Positions 412 through 10,367 of a DNA stretch of 64,000 nt are shown here, piece after piece. The notes below the pieces were generated by a model that saw nothing but the letters and a program-made list of their open reading frames with translations, had not been told where the DNA came from and did no database searches. Every line of letters starts with the position of its first letter. Position 1 is the first letter of the stretch. Both the position numbers and the translations under genes were made by a program. Origin of the DNA: Candidatus Zixiibacteriota bacterium. Lineage in GTDB: Bacteria > Zixibacteria > MSB-5A5 > GN15 > FEB-12. The stretch covers positions 470,039-534,038 of the forward strand of contig JANQPI010000020.1 of assembly GCA_028289585.1 (NCBI GenBank), in the 5' to 3' direction.

Positions 412-441
412 AACTCATGCTCCGTTGTGGGAGCATGAGTT
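412..441 (+). promoter_or_regulatory. Perfect 12-bp hairpin over the BMC-H start codon
   Basis: Bases 412-423 (AACTCATGCTCC) are the exact reverse complement of 430-441, with a 6-nt loop (GTTGTG). The right arm contains the GGAG Shine-Dalgarno-like bases and the ATG at 435; the left arm contains the alternative ATG at 417. Folded in mRNA this would hide both starts, so it could hold down or gate translation of the first shell gene. The regulatory role is inferred. Confidence 0.55.
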
Positions 442-1103
442 ACCACGCCCTCGGACTGATTGAAACGAATGGTCTTGTCGCCGCAATCGAAGCGTGCGAC
501 GCTGCTGCCAAAGCGGCCGGTGTCGTTGTTGCCGCTGCTGAGCTGACCGATGCTGCGTACATGACGATCAAAGTCGAGGGAGAACTCGGCGCGGTCCAGG
601 CCGCGGTCGAGGCGGGAGCGGCCGCCGCACAACGGGTTGGCGAATTGGTTGCGATCCACGTGATCCCTCGCCCCGACGACGGTCTCGGACCGATCATGCC
701 GCCGCGACGGTACGTGAGTAAGTATCACCCCGACGATACCCGCCCGCCGCTCGATCCCGACGATGCCGATTCGGATCTTCCGTTCGGCAGCCCACCCCCG
801 CCGCGGCGACCGTCGGGCGGAAGAGCCCCGGCAAAACCGCCCGCGAGGCGGGAGGTCACTCCGGAGAAACCGACAAAGTCGGAAGCACAGCCTCGTTCTG
901 CGACTTCGACCCCTCAGCAACCCCGCCAAGAGAAAGGGGCTATAGCCCCGCCAGATTGGGAGGCGGTGGAGAAGATGCCCGTCGTCAAACTGCGACGGTT
1001 CGCCCGGACCATCCCCGATCTGCCGATTCAGGGACGGGAGATTTCGATGGCCAACAAGACCCAGTTGCTCGAGGCGATTCGCTCGGTCTGGAAGGAGAAG
1101 TAA
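435..1103 (+). CDS. BMC-H shell protein with Pro-rich linker and Rho_N-like C-terminal domain
   Basis: Hexameric microcompartment shell subunit. Residues 1-85 are one BMC domain of the PduA/CcmK type (opening ALGLIETNGLVAAIEACDAA, closing VAIHVIPRPDD). A Pro/Arg-rich linker of about 80 residues follows, then a C-terminal domain (about 175-222) resembling Rho_N/SAP nucleic-acid-binding folds. The loop that normally carries the GSG pore motif reads LTDAAYM here. I start at 435 because family members begin a few residues before ALG; an ATG at 417 would add six residues, and both starts sit in the hairpin 412-441. The BMC-P gene follows after 3 nt. What the tail binds is unknown. Confidence 0.9.
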   Translation: MSYHALGLIETNGLVAAIEACDAAAKAAGVVVAAAELTDAAYMTIKVEGELGAVQAAVEAGAAAAQRVGELVAIHVIPRPDDGLGPIMPPRRYVSKYHPDDTRPPLDPDDADSDLPFGSPPPPRRPSGGRAPAKPPARREVTPEKPTKSEAQPRSATSTPQQPRQEKGAIAPPDWEAVEKMPVVKLRRFARTIPDLPIQGREISMANKTQLLEAIRSVWKEK

Positions 1104-1106
1104 GCG

Positions 1107-1433
1107 ATGTTTATCGGCCGTGTTGTTGGCTCACTCTGGGCGACCCGCAAGACCGAGAATACCCGCGGCGTCAAATTCCTCATTATCCAGCCGTACAATC
1201 TCAACAAGGCGCCGAACACCGACACGATTGTTGCCGCCGATATCCTGGGGGCCGGGGAGGGGGAACTCGTGATGGTCGCCTATGGCCGGGCGGCGCGCAT
1301 CGCGGTTGGTCACGAGGATATGTCGATTGAGGCGGCAGTGATTGGCATTATCGACGAGTACGAAGTCGATCCGTCGACCTACAGCGGCGATCTGGATCCT
1401 GCTAAAATAAAGTTCAAAAAAGAGACCGCCTGA
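1107..1433 (+). CDS. BMC-P vertex protein (EutN/CcmL/PduN family)
   Basis: A 108-residue pentamer-forming protein that caps the vertices of a microcompartment shell. The N-terminus carries the family signature GRVVGSLWATRKTE, then a KFLIIQPYNL strand and a DILGAGEGELVMVAYGRAAR loop, all typical of EutN/CcmL. Length matches the family (about 85-110). It lies 3 nt after the BMC-H gene and is clearly co-transcribed with it. A 14-bp palindrome (GAGCCGATCGGCTC, 1436-1449) directly follows the stop codon. Confidence 0.93.
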   Translation: MFIGRVVGSLWATRKTENTRGVKFLIIQPYNLNKAPNTDTIVAADILGAGEGELVMVAYGRAARIAVGHEDMSIEAAVIGIIDEYEVDPSTYSGDLDPAKIKFKKETA

Positions 1434-5334: not shown

Positions 5335-5360
5335 CGTCGTCGTCGGGCGCGCTTCCCATC

Positions 5361-5694
5361 GTCGTCATCCCCGCGTAGGCGGGGATCCAGTCTTACGCTC
5401 GTAATGCGGGGCAGGTGAGGACACCTGCCGCCCACACACTTCGTGTGTCCCCACTCACCGTCGTCATCCCCGCGTAGGCGGGGATCCAGTCTTACGCTCG
5501 TAATGCGGGGCAGGTGAGGACACCTGCCGCCCACACACTTCGTTTGTCCCCACCCATCGTCGTCATCCCCGCGCAGGCGGGGATCCAGTCTTACGCTCGT
5601 AATGCGGGGCAGGTGAGGACACCTGCCGCCACACACTTCGTGTGTCCCCACCCACCGTCGTCATCCCCGCGTAGGCGGGGATCCAGCCTTACGT
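5361..5694. repeat. Four-copy tandem array of a 98-99 bp REP-containing unit
   Basis: Units start at 5361, 5460, 5559 and 5657 (periods 99, 99, 98). Each has a REP hairpin (GTCATCCCCGCG, AGGCGGGGATCCAG), a GGGGCAGGTGAGGACACC-TGCCGCCC hairpin module and a CACACACTTCGTGTGTCCCC hairpin. Copies differ by only a few bases; copy 3 lost one C and copy 4 stops after its REP. Unit length divisible by three leaves a false open frame on the minus strand. Near identity indicates recent expansion. This is not CRISPR: there are no unique spacers. Confidence 0.92.
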
Positions 5695-5891: not shown

Positions 5892-7220
5892 ATGCATCCC
5901 CTGATCGAGAAGGTTCGTGAGGCGGGGGTCGTTGGTGCCGGCGGCGCCGGATTTCCCTCGCATATCAAATTCAACGCCCAGGTCGACACGCTGTTGGCGA
6001 ACGGTGCCGAGTGCGAACCGCTCCTCTACAAAGACAAAGAGACGATGCGGGTTTTCCCCGAGGAGATCGCCAAAGGGATGGAACTCGTTGCCCAGGCAAC
6101 CGGTGCGAACCGTCAGATTCTCGGTCTCAAGTCGAAGAACCACGAGGTGATCGGGGTCTTTCATCGGATGTTCGGTCACGACGATACGAAAGTTGTCCAC
6201 GAAATGGGCGACTACTATCCCGCCGGCGATGAGTATGTCCTCGTGTTCGAGGCGACGGGGCGACTGATTCCGTATGGTGGCTACCCGGTCGATATCGGCT
6301 GTGTTGTCACCAACGTCGAAACGCTGGTTAACGTCGCGCTTGCCAATCTGGGAATTCCGGTAACCGATGCGATCATTACGGTCGCAGGAGCGGTGCGCAA
6401 TCCGGTAACGATTCGCGTGCCGATCGGCACGTCAATGCAGACCGTTCTCGACTGGACCGGTGGTATCTCGACCGGTGGTCAGAAACCGTACGCACTCGAT
6501 GGTGGTGCGATGATGGGTGAGTTGGTCGAGGATTTCTCCAAACCGATTACCAAGACCTCAGCCGGGTTTATCGTCGTCCCCGAAGATCATATTTTGGTGC
6601 GACGTCGGAATGCGTCAGTATCGGAATTCAAACGCATCGGACAGTCGGCGTGCGATCAATGCTCGTATTGCACCGAGTTCTGTCCGCGCTATCTGCTTGG
6701 GTACCAGATTGAACCGCACAAGGTGATGCGTTCACTCGGTTTCAAAGGGGAGCAGGATACGTTCTGGGGATCGTACGCGATCAACTGCTGTGAATGTAAT
6801 TTGTGCACGTACTACGCCTGCCCGGAAGACCTCGACCCCAAACAGGCGTGCACTCGGTCAAAAGTGAATATCAGGCTCCAGGATATTCCGTATACGCCGC
6901 CGGAGCAGCCGCTCACGGCGCATCCGATGCAGGCGCATCGCAAGGTTTCGACAACCAAACTGACGCGCAAGCTCGGCCTGACGCCGTTTGATGTCCATGC
7001 CGACTGGGCAGAGTGTGATCTTCAACCGTCGGAAGTCGTCATTCCGCTCAAGCAGCATATCGGCGTACCGTCTGAGCCCATCGTTTCAGTTGGTGACACG
7101 GTTACGCGTGGGCAGAAGATCGGTGCTATTCCGACTGGCCAGATGGGCGCCAACGTGCACGCATCGATCAACGGCCGGGTTACTGAGGTCGGCGACGCAA
7201 TTCGAATCGAGGCGGCATAG
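5892..7220 (+). CDS. PduS/RnfC-type flavin and Fe-S electron-transfer protein of a microcompartment
   Basis: 442 residues, matching PduS (about 450), the BMC NADH-linked (cobalamin) reductase. An N-terminal Gly-rich nucleotide loop (GAGGAGFPSHIK, 15-26), a Complex I 51-kDa/RnfC core, and an SLBB segment (about 162-215) precede two 4Fe-4S motifs: C254/257/260/264, and C299/302/305 with C310. A barrel-sandwich RnfC domain ends the protein (about 365-442). It should pass electrons from NADH towards the Fe-S shell protein encoded 5 nt downstream, as PduS does with PduT. It starts the second BMC block. Whether it reduces cobalamin or only recycles NAD is open, since no B12 enzyme is visible here. 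Confidence 0.92.
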   Translation: MHPLIEKVREAGVVGAGGAGFPSHIKFNAQVDTLLANGAECEPLLYKDKETMRVFPEEIAKGMELVAQATGANRQILGLKSKNHEVIGVFHRMFGHDDTKVVHEMGDYYPAGDEYVLVFEATGRLIPYGGYPVDIGCVVTNVETLVNVALANLGIPVTDAIITVAGAVRNPVTIRVPIGTSMQTVLDWTGGISTGGQKPYALDGGAMMGELVEDFSKPITKTSAGFIVVPEDHILVRRRNASVSEFKRIGQSACDQCSYCTEFCPRYLLGYQIEPHKVMRSLGFKGEQDTFWGSYAINCCECNLCTYYACPEDLDPKQACTRSKVNIRLQDIPYTPPEQPLTAHPMQAHRKVSTTKLTRKLGLTPFDVHADWAECDLQPSEVVIPLKQHIGVPSEPIVSVGDTVTRGQKIGAIPTGQMGANVHASINGRVTEVGDAIRIEAA

Positions 7221-7225
7221 AACCC

Positions 7226-7777
7226 ATGGAATATAACGCGATAGGACTGCTGGAATACTCATCGATCGCCAAGGGGATCGGTTCGGCCGACGCGATGGTC
7301 AAGGCGGCGGCCGTTGATCTCGTCATTTCGCGAACGATCTGTTCCGGCAAATTCATGAATCTGATTGCGGGAGATGTCGATGCTGTGCGCAACGCCCTTG
7401 GTGCTGGCGAGGACTACGGTCAGGAGACGGTCATCGATTCGTTCCTGATTCCGAACGTTCACCCCGATGTCTTTCCTGCCATGTCTGGTTCGACCAATGT
7501 AACCGCCCTTGATGCGTTGGGTATTATCGAATCGTTTTCGGTCGCATCGCTGATCGAAGGTGCCGATCAGGCGGCGAAGGCGGCCGAGGTCAAACTGATT
7601 GAGATACGTTTAGCGATGGCGCTGGGTGGCAAGGCATTTGTGACGCTGACCGGCGAGGTCGGTGCGGTCGAATCGGCGGTGGCGGCCGGAGAGGATGTCG
7701 TTTCTCGAAATGGGATGCTGGTGCACACGATTGTCATTCCCTCACCGCGGCCCGAACTGTTGCGAGATATCTTGTAA
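7226..7777 (+). CDS. PduT-type tandem BMC-T shell protein with Fe-S cysteine
   Basis: 183 residues made of two BMC domains (about 1-90 and 95-183) that form trimers replacing a hexamer in the shell. The sequence follows PduT throughout. The VISRTICSGKF segment keeps the Cys (C39 here, C38 in PduT) that holds a [4Fe-4S] cluster at the trimer axis. Together with the upstream PduS-type protein this gives an electron path across the shell. The stop codon overlaps the next start by one base. Confidence 0.93.
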   Translation: MEYNAIGLLEYSSIAKGIGSADAMVKAAAVDLVISRTICSGKFMNLIAGDVDAVRNALGAGEDYGQETVIDSFLIPNVHPDVFPAMSGSTNVTALDALGIIESFSVASLIEGADQAAKAAEVKLIEIRLAMALGGKAFVTLTGEVGAVESAVAAGEDVVSRNGMLVHTIVIPSPRPELLRDIL

Positions 7778-8349
7778 TGGCCCTTACCGATTTCGAAATC
7801 AAACAGCTTACCCGAATGGTCGCCGATCGCATGGGGAAATCAGTCTCCGATGCGGATCTCTCAACGGTCGTTGCGCAGGTGACCGAATCGTTGCAGGCGA
7901 AGCCGAACAATCCGGAGATTACCGGCGCGACGTGCGAGGTGTCCCCGCCTCGGCAATCGTCCCAACCAAGTCATATGGCAACCGTGCATGATGTGCAGAC
8001 GCCACCGACGGCAACACCGACCCACGCGGTCAACAGTGAACAGTTAGGACTCTATCAGCAGATCGAGCAAACCGATGCATCGCGCGTAATCGTAGCTGCT
8101 TTCGGCCAGAATCGACCGGGTATTGTTGCCGCAGTTACACGGGCCCTCTCAGAGACGGCCTGCAACATTGAGGATATGTCGCAGACGATCATGCAGGATG
8201 TTTTCACACTTATCATGCTCGTCGACATTTCCGGTGCCAACACCGATTTCCCGACAGTCCGTGATCGCCTGACTGCAATCGAATCTGAACTCGGAATGAA
8301 AGTCTTCGTTATGCACGAGGATATCTTCCGTTACATGCATCGGATCTGA
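7777..8349 (+). CDS. ACT-domain (UPF0237-type) protein with encapsulation-peptide-like N-terminus
   Basis: 190 residues. Residues 101-190 are one ACT domain of the UPF0237 type (VIVAAFGQNRPGIVAAVTRA; end HEDIFRYMHRI). The stand-alone family is only about 90 residues; here 100 extra come first. Residues 3-19 (LTDFEIKQLTRMVADRM) form an amphipathic helix with hydrophobics at i, i+3/4, i+7, followed by a Pro/Thr/Ser-rich linker (about 41-85). That is the layout of BMC encapsulation peptides. UPF0237 genes usually sit next to UPF0210, as here (9009). I infer a regulatory or ligand-binding partner brought into the microcompartment. Confidence 0.85.
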   Translation: MALTDFEIKQLTRMVADRMGKSVSDADLSTVVAQVTESLQAKPNNPEITGATCEVSPPRQSSQPSHMATVHDVQTPPTATPTHAVNSEQLGLYQQIEQTDASRVIVAAFGQNRPGIVAAVTRALSETACNIEDMSQTIMQDVFTLIMLVDISGANTDFPTVRDRLTAIESELGMKVFVMHEDIFRYMHRI

Positions 8350-8350
8350 T

Positions 8351-9001
8351 GTGGCCGATCTTGCCACGCGATATACCGAACTGAAAGTCGACCTGGTCGC
8401 CCGGTACGAGCGGGATGAGTTATCGGCGACTGACAAGCTTGATCTCGCCGCAATCTACCTTGTGCAGAAAGAGAACAGCGACGCAATCGCACTCTATACC
8501 GACCTGGCCGAAGCAACCGAATCGCTTGAGTCTGGCCGTCGCGCCAAACTGTGGCTTGCCTATTGTTACACCGTTATCGATTACGATCAGTCGCGATTGG
8601 ACGCAATCGAGGAGCTGACTTCGTCGCTGATGGATGTCGATGACGATAACTCCGCGGGCGCGCTGATTGTCGCGTCACACGCGATGATGGGTGTCGATGG
8701 TGACATGTCGATGGCACGCATCAATGCCCTGGAGGAATGTATCCGGCGGCGTCCCGATTGGGTGCTGCCCTATTTCTATCTCGCCAAGATCTATGAGGAG
8801 ATGCGAGCACCACAGGCGGCGCTCGATGCGTATCTTGGTGCACAGGGAAAGACACACGATCCGGCCGATGATCTCTCTCCGGACGAACGAAACTTCGAGG
8901 TTTGGATAACCGGACGGACCGCGACCCAGTGGGTTGGCAGCCACATCGAAGAATCGATCAAAGAATTGCAGGACGGCCTCGCCCGGCTGCGTCAATCGTG
9001 A
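8351..9001 (+). CDS. TPR-like helical repeat protein in the BMC operon
   Basis: 216 residues from a GTG one base after the ACT stop. The protein is almost wholly helical, with TPR-like pairs (for example [20 protein letters not shown] and [20 protein letters not shown]). No signal peptide, membrane segment or catalytic motif. Tight spacing places it in the same operon as the PduT-type and UPF0210 genes. A scaffold or assembly role is plausible but unproven; it is not a known BMC component that I recognise. Confidence 0.75.
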
Positions 9002-9008
9002 GCTTACC

Positions 9009-10367
9009 ATGCTGACCTACCGTCCCGACGAAATTCTCGAAACGATTCACATGACCGAGGTCGAGCATCTCGACATCCGCACGGTCACAATGGGCATTTC
9101 ACTCCGGGATTGCAGCGATCCGAATCCGGCGACCCTTCTCGAAAAGATCCGGACTAAACTGCTGCGTACGGCGGAACATCATGTACGCACCGTCGAAGAC
9201 ATCTCTTCGGAGTTTGGTATCCCGATCGCCAACAAACGAATCTCGGTTACGCCGATTGCGATTGTCGCTGATGGTCATGACATCGGAACGCTCATCGATG
9301 TTGCCCGTACCCTCGACAATGCCGCCGGCGAACTTGGGATCGACTATCTGGGTGGTTTCGGTGCGCTCGTGCAGAAAGGGACAACGCGCGGCGATCAGGC
9401 ACTGATTGACGCGATCCCCGACGCATTGGCGGCGACACAGCGCATCTGTTCGTCGGTCAACGTCGCCTCGACCAAAGCTGGTATCAACATGGATGCCGTG
9501 GCGCGCATGGGCGAGGTCATCAAAGAGCTCGCTGAGAAGACCGATCAAGCAGTCGGGTGCGCGCGCCTGGTTACATTCGCCAACTGTGTCGAGGACAACC
9601 CGTTCATCGCCGGAGCGTTTCATGGTGTCTCGGAACCAGATGTTGTCATCAATGTCGGTATCTCCGGTCCGGGAGTGGTTCTCAACGCTGTCCGTGCCGC
9701 CGGGGACTGTGAGTTCGGGATTCTCGCTGAGGTAATCAAGCGAACTGCATTCAAGGTTACCCGCATGGGCGAGATGGTCGGTCGAAAGGTGTCGTCTCGC
9801 CTCGGTATTCCGTTCGGTATCGTTGATCTGTCACTGGCCCCAACGCCGGCCGAGGGTGACTCGGTTGCCGCCATCCTTGAGGCGATCGGTGTCGAGCGCG
9901 TTGGTTGTCACGGGACTACTGCGGCACTGATGCTGTTGAATGATGCCGTCAAAAAAGGTGGCCTGATGGCATCATCGTATGTCGGTGGTCTTTCGGGAGC
10001 GTTCATCCCCGTCTCTGAGGATGCCGGCATGATCGCCGCTGTCGAGGCAGGGGCGTTGTCGCTCGACAAACTTGAGGCGATGACGTCGGTCTGCTCGGTT
10101 GGTCTCGATATGGTTGCTGTACCGGGCAATACTCCACCGAGTACGATTGCGGCGATTCTTGCCGACGAGTGCGCGATTGGGGTGGCGAACAATAAGACGA
10201 CCGCCGTGCGGATCATTCCAGTCACGGGCAAGATGGTCGGCCAGTCGGCCGAATACGGGGGCTTGCTGGGTACCGCACCAGTCATGCCGATAAGTCGTTT
10301 TTCGTCGTCGACATTCATTGCCCGCGGGGGACGAATCCCCGCGCCAACGGGTGGCATCAATAACTAG
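9009..10367 (+). CDS. UPF0210/DUF711 protein (PFL-like superfamily)
   Basis: 452 residues, the usual length of UPF0210. It opens with the family block ILETI-x6[11 protein letters not shown] and keeps the [21 protein letters not shown] and [14 protein letters not shown] blocks and the terminal GGINN. Conserved-domain collections place DUF711 in the ribonucleotide-reductase/pyruvate-formate-lyase superfamily, but I see no glycyl-radical motif at the C-terminus and no activase gene nearby. The function of the family is unknown. ATG 9009 is used because the longer frame from 8934 overlaps the previous gene and adds non-conserved residues. Its placement makes it a candidate compartment enzyme. Confidence 0.9.

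Follow-up and report, generated by a model that had tools for sequence, protein, structure and literature searches.

A tandem encapsulation-peptide-like module precedes the ACT domain of a UPF0237-type protein in a putative Zixibacteria microcompartment operon

Within the window, that is, the whole stretch of 64,000 nucleotides from a FEB-12 genome that was analysed, profile matches reveal a set of bacterial microcompartment (BMC) genes on the plus strand: a BMC-H shell protein with a long C-terminal extension (417..1103), a EutN/CcmL pentamer (BMC-P; 1107..1433), a PduS/RnfC-like flavin/FeS electron-transfer protein (5892..7220) and a PduT-like BMC-T shell protein with two BMC domains (7226..7777). 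The ATG of the following gene (7777..8349), encoding a 190-aa UPF0237-type ACT protein with an N-terminal two-helix module, shares one base with the BMC-T stop codon. Further downstream on the same strand lie a TPR-like ORF called from weak matches (8351..9001) and the partner gene UPF0210/DUF711 (9009..10367), recognized through profile and structure matches and devoid of an N-terminal extension. Related genomes keep the gene order PduS, BMC-T, ACT, UPF0210, with the ACT gene behind BMC-T in most family loci; nothing corresponding to the TPR-like ORF turned up in the related loci of the order that were examined. The BMC-H extension spans ~130 residues and ends in a helix-pair-like LRRxAR...IxGRxI...LL pattern that recurs in two further loci (L081 and L091); it returned no Pfam match. 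A tandem array (99-bp unit, 3.4 copies, 95% matches) sits between the shell genes at 5355-5693, and promoters and terminators were predicted in the operon no more often than in shuffles.

The family signal in ORF 7777-8349 is confined to residues 102-190 (8080..8346, plus strand). This part matched ACT_6 (8e-15; 54.9 bits against a curated cut-off of 23) and PRK00194/UPF0237 (9e-29; 99.6 against 74), it ends in a conserved HEDIFRYMHRI stretch (residues 180-190), and its nearest solved structure, by sequence as well as by fold, is 1ZPV, an ACT protein from S. pneumoniae. AlphaFold, supplied with a 23-sequence alignment, placed the ACT fold—a domain that is typically oligomeric—at residues 103-190, with pLDDT mostly >90. 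No second ACT_6 protein was found in the same genome. By its domain, the protein belongs to UPF0237; with 190 aa as compared to the typical ~90 aa, it represents an extended variant. The initial annotation had likewise put the normal size of the family at ~90 residues and ascribed ~100 additional N-terminal residues to this member, and both statements hold: most sampled Bacillota UPF0237 homologues measure 87-98 aa from the first ATG, and residues 1-56, beyond the reach of the family profiles, are conserved across 12 full-length family homologues.

This conserved part comprises two helices resembling encapsulation peptides (EPs), both predicted at a pLDDT of about 75: helix 1 at residues 5-19 (7789..7833, plus strand, as are all features of this ORF), which also emerged from alignments and a motif test, and helix 2 at residues 25-41 (7849..7899), likewise picked up by the motif test. 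They are followed by a family-specific NPxxxGxTC segment defined by alignment (residues 45-53; 7909..7935) and a Pro/Ser/Thr linker (residues 57-90; 7945..8046), with the whole of residues 48-90 predicted to be disordered (pLDDT <50). Mean pairwise identity across the 12 homologues reached 69% in helix 1 (residues 1-20), 58% in helix 2 (25-41), 60% in the segment 42-56 and 71% in the ACT domain; the linker is 18% identical among family homologues and varies in length from 24 to 76 residues. I8 in helix 1 was invariant in a diverse set of 12 sequences, helix 1 with the pattern LSxxEIxxI formed the constant part of more divergent homologues, and helix 2 displays the hydrophobic pattern phi-x-x-phi-phi-x-x-phi-phi-x-x-phi from L28 on. 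The NPxxxGxTC motif, including its cysteine, was present downstream of helix 2 in 11/12 family homologues. Searching the extension against PDB and Pfam returned no credible domain. The amphipathic helix and linker proposed initially are borne out by helix 5-19 and the disordered stretch; the second helix and the segment at 45-53 had been missed, and with two EP-like helices and a conserved 15-residue segment the arrangement departs from the 'standard design' of BMC cargo tags that had been invoked.

EPs have been described as an amphipathic terminal helix of about 18 residues with a poorly conserved linker (PMC12339742 and PMC8217296), and modelling together with binding data placed the Pdu EPs in a luminal-side groove between shell tiles (PMC11157265). 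A strict EP-type motif matched ORF 7777-8349 at residues 8 and 28, the latter match being shared by 12/12 family homologues. EP-type motifs occurred in 2% of 249 background N-termini and in 26 of the 822 ORFs sampled from about a third of the protein's own genome; a single one of these 822, ORF 7777-8349 itself, carried two strict motifs within its first 45 residues, a comparison that is descriptive given that the motif expression was written with the ACT extensions and the aldehyde dehydrogenase tags described below in view. Some divergent homologues lack the strict motif (those at L050, L051 and L091).

At a second site in the genome, on contig C16 (locus L007), a EutM-like BMC-H gene adjoins an aldehyde dehydrogenase matching PRK15398 at 589 bits, a subfamily of the CoA-acylating EutE/PduP type. 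The N-terminus of this enzyme, MAELDAQSVTDIVRRVVAEIQ, looks like a typical tag, and aldehyde dehydrogenase tags of the same pattern were found in 11 genomes. The ACT extension and these tags are similar in form; their profile comparison by hhalign was not significant (probability 3%, E 0.013) and too weak for a claim of homology.

Among 80 genomes of the order, 15 encode a homologue of the ACT protein, 28 encode BMC domains, and 14 of the 15 have both (Fisher 3e-7, a value that overstates independence because the genomes are phylogenetically related). The exception, G008, is a 72% complete genome in which a contig end cuts the ACT gene and leaves the extension out of view. Elsewhere, the module accompanies BMC genes in other Zixibacteria families (G098, G117, G118, G125, G126 and G131) and in the Ignavibacteria genome G132, such that every genome with a visible extension—from Zixibacteria families and one Ignavibacterium—has BMC shell genes. 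Searching 132 Zixibacteria genomes with the 56-residue module returned the 12 known proteins and the BMC-linked protein of G117, with otherwise weak scores. Within individual loci, we noted an in-frame stop in one ACT gene (L030, 10067-10627) and a frame break in one UPF0210 gene (L026, 10734-12088), either of which may be an assembly error.

The initial annotation had called for a comparison of homologues near and far from BMC loci, and held that the same extension outside such loci would speak against a tag. The extension does occur away from shell genes, namely in Zixibacteria (L034 and L035) and in an Ignavibacteria locus with a similar two-helix start (L050). All of these genomes encode BMC shells (the last with four BMC domains), so these cases count against a tag in the letter only.

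Two genomes of family f16, G117 and G118, depart from the common pattern: the tag is retained, as is the position next to BMC-T, and the ACT domain is degenerate and without the HEDIFxxMH tail (the degenerate protein of this group is represented at L119, 1177-1629, and L092). UPF0210 was not found in G117 (96% complete) or G118 (69% complete).

Extensions of a different kind occur outside this lineage. Six Bacillota genomes without BMC domains all lacked the two-helix module: three encode ACT proteins of 87-90 aa, and three, from Clostridia (L053-L055), encode proteins of 152 aa whose N-terminal domain is of EutT/PDU_like type, presumably resembling that of EutT, and lacks an EP helix. A second group with BMC genes, drawn as one phylum around L056, has UPF0237 proteins of about 200-240 aa that consist of a EutT/PDU_like-type domain, a helical Pro-containing stretch (SEGDLASIIEQVVMEEL in L056), a linker and then ACT; relative to the proteins of the shell-less Clostridia, these carry an extra helix and linker after the N-terminal domain and ahead of ACT. 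BMC domains were present in 27/27 genomes of this group with a homologue versus 15/52 without (p 1e-10, Fisher, on related genomes). Most of the second-group ACT genes have between one and four EutN genes, and UPF0210, as neighbours, and in four loci (L193-L196) no EutN was found in the stretch read, with the genomes BMC-carrying. Four consecutive EutN (BMC-P) genes lie just upstream of ACT-UPF0210 in L056, L177, L178, L179, L181 and L186, and MeaB is encoded directly downstream in L056, L177 and L179.

The UPF0210 partner matched PRK05313 at 702.7 bits and structure 2HA9 at E=4e-165; one small ORF separates it from the ACT gene. It is collinear with non-BMC homologues and carries no tag. The fold of UPF0210 proteins is a ten-stranded barrel, as in glycyl radical enzymes and ribonucleotide reductases, and we know of no function assigned to the family. 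UPF0210 was present in 13/15 genomes of the order with an ACT homologue, and in Bacillota it pairs with ACT proteins without the two-helix module. In a UPF0210 tree, the Zixibacteria plus Ignavibacteria, the second group and the Bacillota formed separate supported groups, a topology compatible with two gains of the BMC link, or with one gain and one loss.

Judged from these sequence comparisons, the ACT protein is very probably part of a microcompartment, and a role of its extension in microcompartment targeting or assembly is well supported comparatively. The earlier reading of the extension as a BMC tag has good comparative backing: the two-helix module was seen in BMC-carrying genomes only, the second group has a helix-bearing version of its own, and the BMC aldehyde dehydrogenase in the same genomes bears a tag of like form. 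We propose that the N-terminal ~56 residues would act as a targeting or assembly module, with tandem EP-like helices on a flexible linker tethering the ACT-domain protein to the BMC's shell or core, and that the ACT domain, as the partner of the adjacent untagged UPF0210, probably brings the latter to the compartment and may also act as its regulator. To this explanation as a whole, we assign a probability of roughly two in three. Its parts differ in strength. Binding of the two helices to shell or core is likely. UPF0210 is untagged and, if encapsulated, would probably have to be carried, which makes ACT—its genomic partner also in Bacillota—the obvious carrier; recruitment by ACT is nonetheless a tentative suggestion, with somewhat less than an even chance. 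Control of UPF0210 or ACT by a small ligand is speculative and rather unlikely. The initial view of a sensor cargo controlling UPF0210 goes beyond the evidence, since in G117 and G118 the tag precedes a degenerate ACT domain and UPF0210 was not found; their loss of the tail and UPF0210 but not of the tag fits a tail that serves UPF0210 and a tag that serves the compartment. We consider doubtful the most far-reaching version, in which a tandem EP on an ACT sensor would form a ligand-responsive adaptor carrying UPF0210 into a FRAG-like BMC as its missing core enzyme.

The f16 pattern leaves room for a structural role, whereby two helices on an ACT domain would cross-link the shell with the core, or would nucleate assembly, in the manner of PduM or CcmN, with sensing and UPF0210 secondary or lost. 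Tandem helices would provide multivalency, for which serial EP repeats have been tested in vitro (PMC12339742), and G117 and G118 retained just the tag beside BMC-T. However, in the other lineages conservation of the ACT domain equals that of the tag (71% versus 69%) and UPF0210 accompanies it in nearly all of the order's genomes with a homologue (13/15), rendering a structural adaptor unlikely. Less probable still is an interaction domain in place of a tag, with the helices binding UPF0210, PduS or the outer face of BMC-T in the cytosol, or packing on their own protein. An EP-looking N-terminal extension can indeed fail to target, as that of PduE, which packs on its own protein (PMC12108088), and conservation of the present module, including the 15 residues after helix 2, exceeds what a generic EP would need. 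Yet UPF0210 in Bacillota does without the module, the module persists in genomes where UPF0210 was not found, and both helices show EP spacing ahead of a long disordered stretch. The extended proteins of the shell-less Clostridia demonstrate that UPF0237 extensions as such are not diagnostic, but these consist of another domain without the helices, and the two-helix module was seen in BMC genomes only; a lineage-specific addition unrelated to the microcompartment was already disfavoured and is highly improbable. Our preferred reading is that of a targeting or assembly module on an ACT partner of UPF0210.

FRAG-type and other BMCs without an obvious signature enzyme have been described by Sutter et al. 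(PMC8217296), who recorded FRAG BMCs in Ignavibacteriae, Planctomycetes and candidate phyla. Tagged ACT and UPF0210 recur alongside BMC genes in Zixibacteria, in an Ignavibacterium and in the second group, which makes them concrete candidates for the cargo of such BMCs and makes BMC loci a setting in which to look for the function of UPF0210. If correct, a small-molecule-sensor domain would here bear an EP-like tag. A partial survey of the literature returned no paper connecting microcompartments with DUF711 or with a protein that has an ACT domain, and an earlier catalogue listing of UPF0210/ACT in FRAG loci is possible.

In comparison with known systems, the BMC of the FEB-12 genome appears to resemble the FRAG type as described by Sutter et al. 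2021 (PMC8217296): its shell genes are scattered over separate sites, on contig C21 (BMC-H, EutN and BMC-T) and contig C16 (BMC-H with the aldehyde dehydrogenase), in agreement with the FRAG definition, and it has no known signature enzyme. The BMC-P triplet that also characterizes FRAG BMCs did not turn up in the 1.01 of 3.15 Mb that were read, which contained one EutN, whereas loci of the second group have up to four; a non-exhaustive search for PduL by a short motif in the same 1.01 Mb found none. The ACT domain itself (residues 102-190), its HEDIFxxMHxI C-terminus and the DUF711 gene close downstream are shared with the UPF0237/PRK00194 and UPF0210 families (1ZPV; SP0239 = 2HA9), whereas ordinary UPF0237 proteins of ~90 aa are not BMC-linked and lack the ~100-residue N-terminal module. 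With the EPs of PduP, PduD, PduL and the genome's own aldehyde dehydrogenase, the extension shares an N-terminal amphipathic helix of ~15-20 residues with alternating hydrophobic pairs, a flexible, disordered and poorly conserved linker before the cargo domain, and absence from the homologues in the six BMC-free genomes examined; it differs in its tandem helices, the conserved segment behind them and a regulatory-type domain in place of an enzyme. The 'new kind of cargo' announced by the initial annotation is less new than supposed in that PduM and PduB already exemplify tagged BMC proteins without a catalytic role (PMC12108088). The present case stands out by its EP-like tag, seemingly in tandem, which a non-enzyme carries in a FRAG-like BMC, and by the domain that bears it: no homologues of PduM are known beyond Pdu BMCs, and PduB forms part of the shell, whereas the tagged part here belongs to a widespread ACT family.
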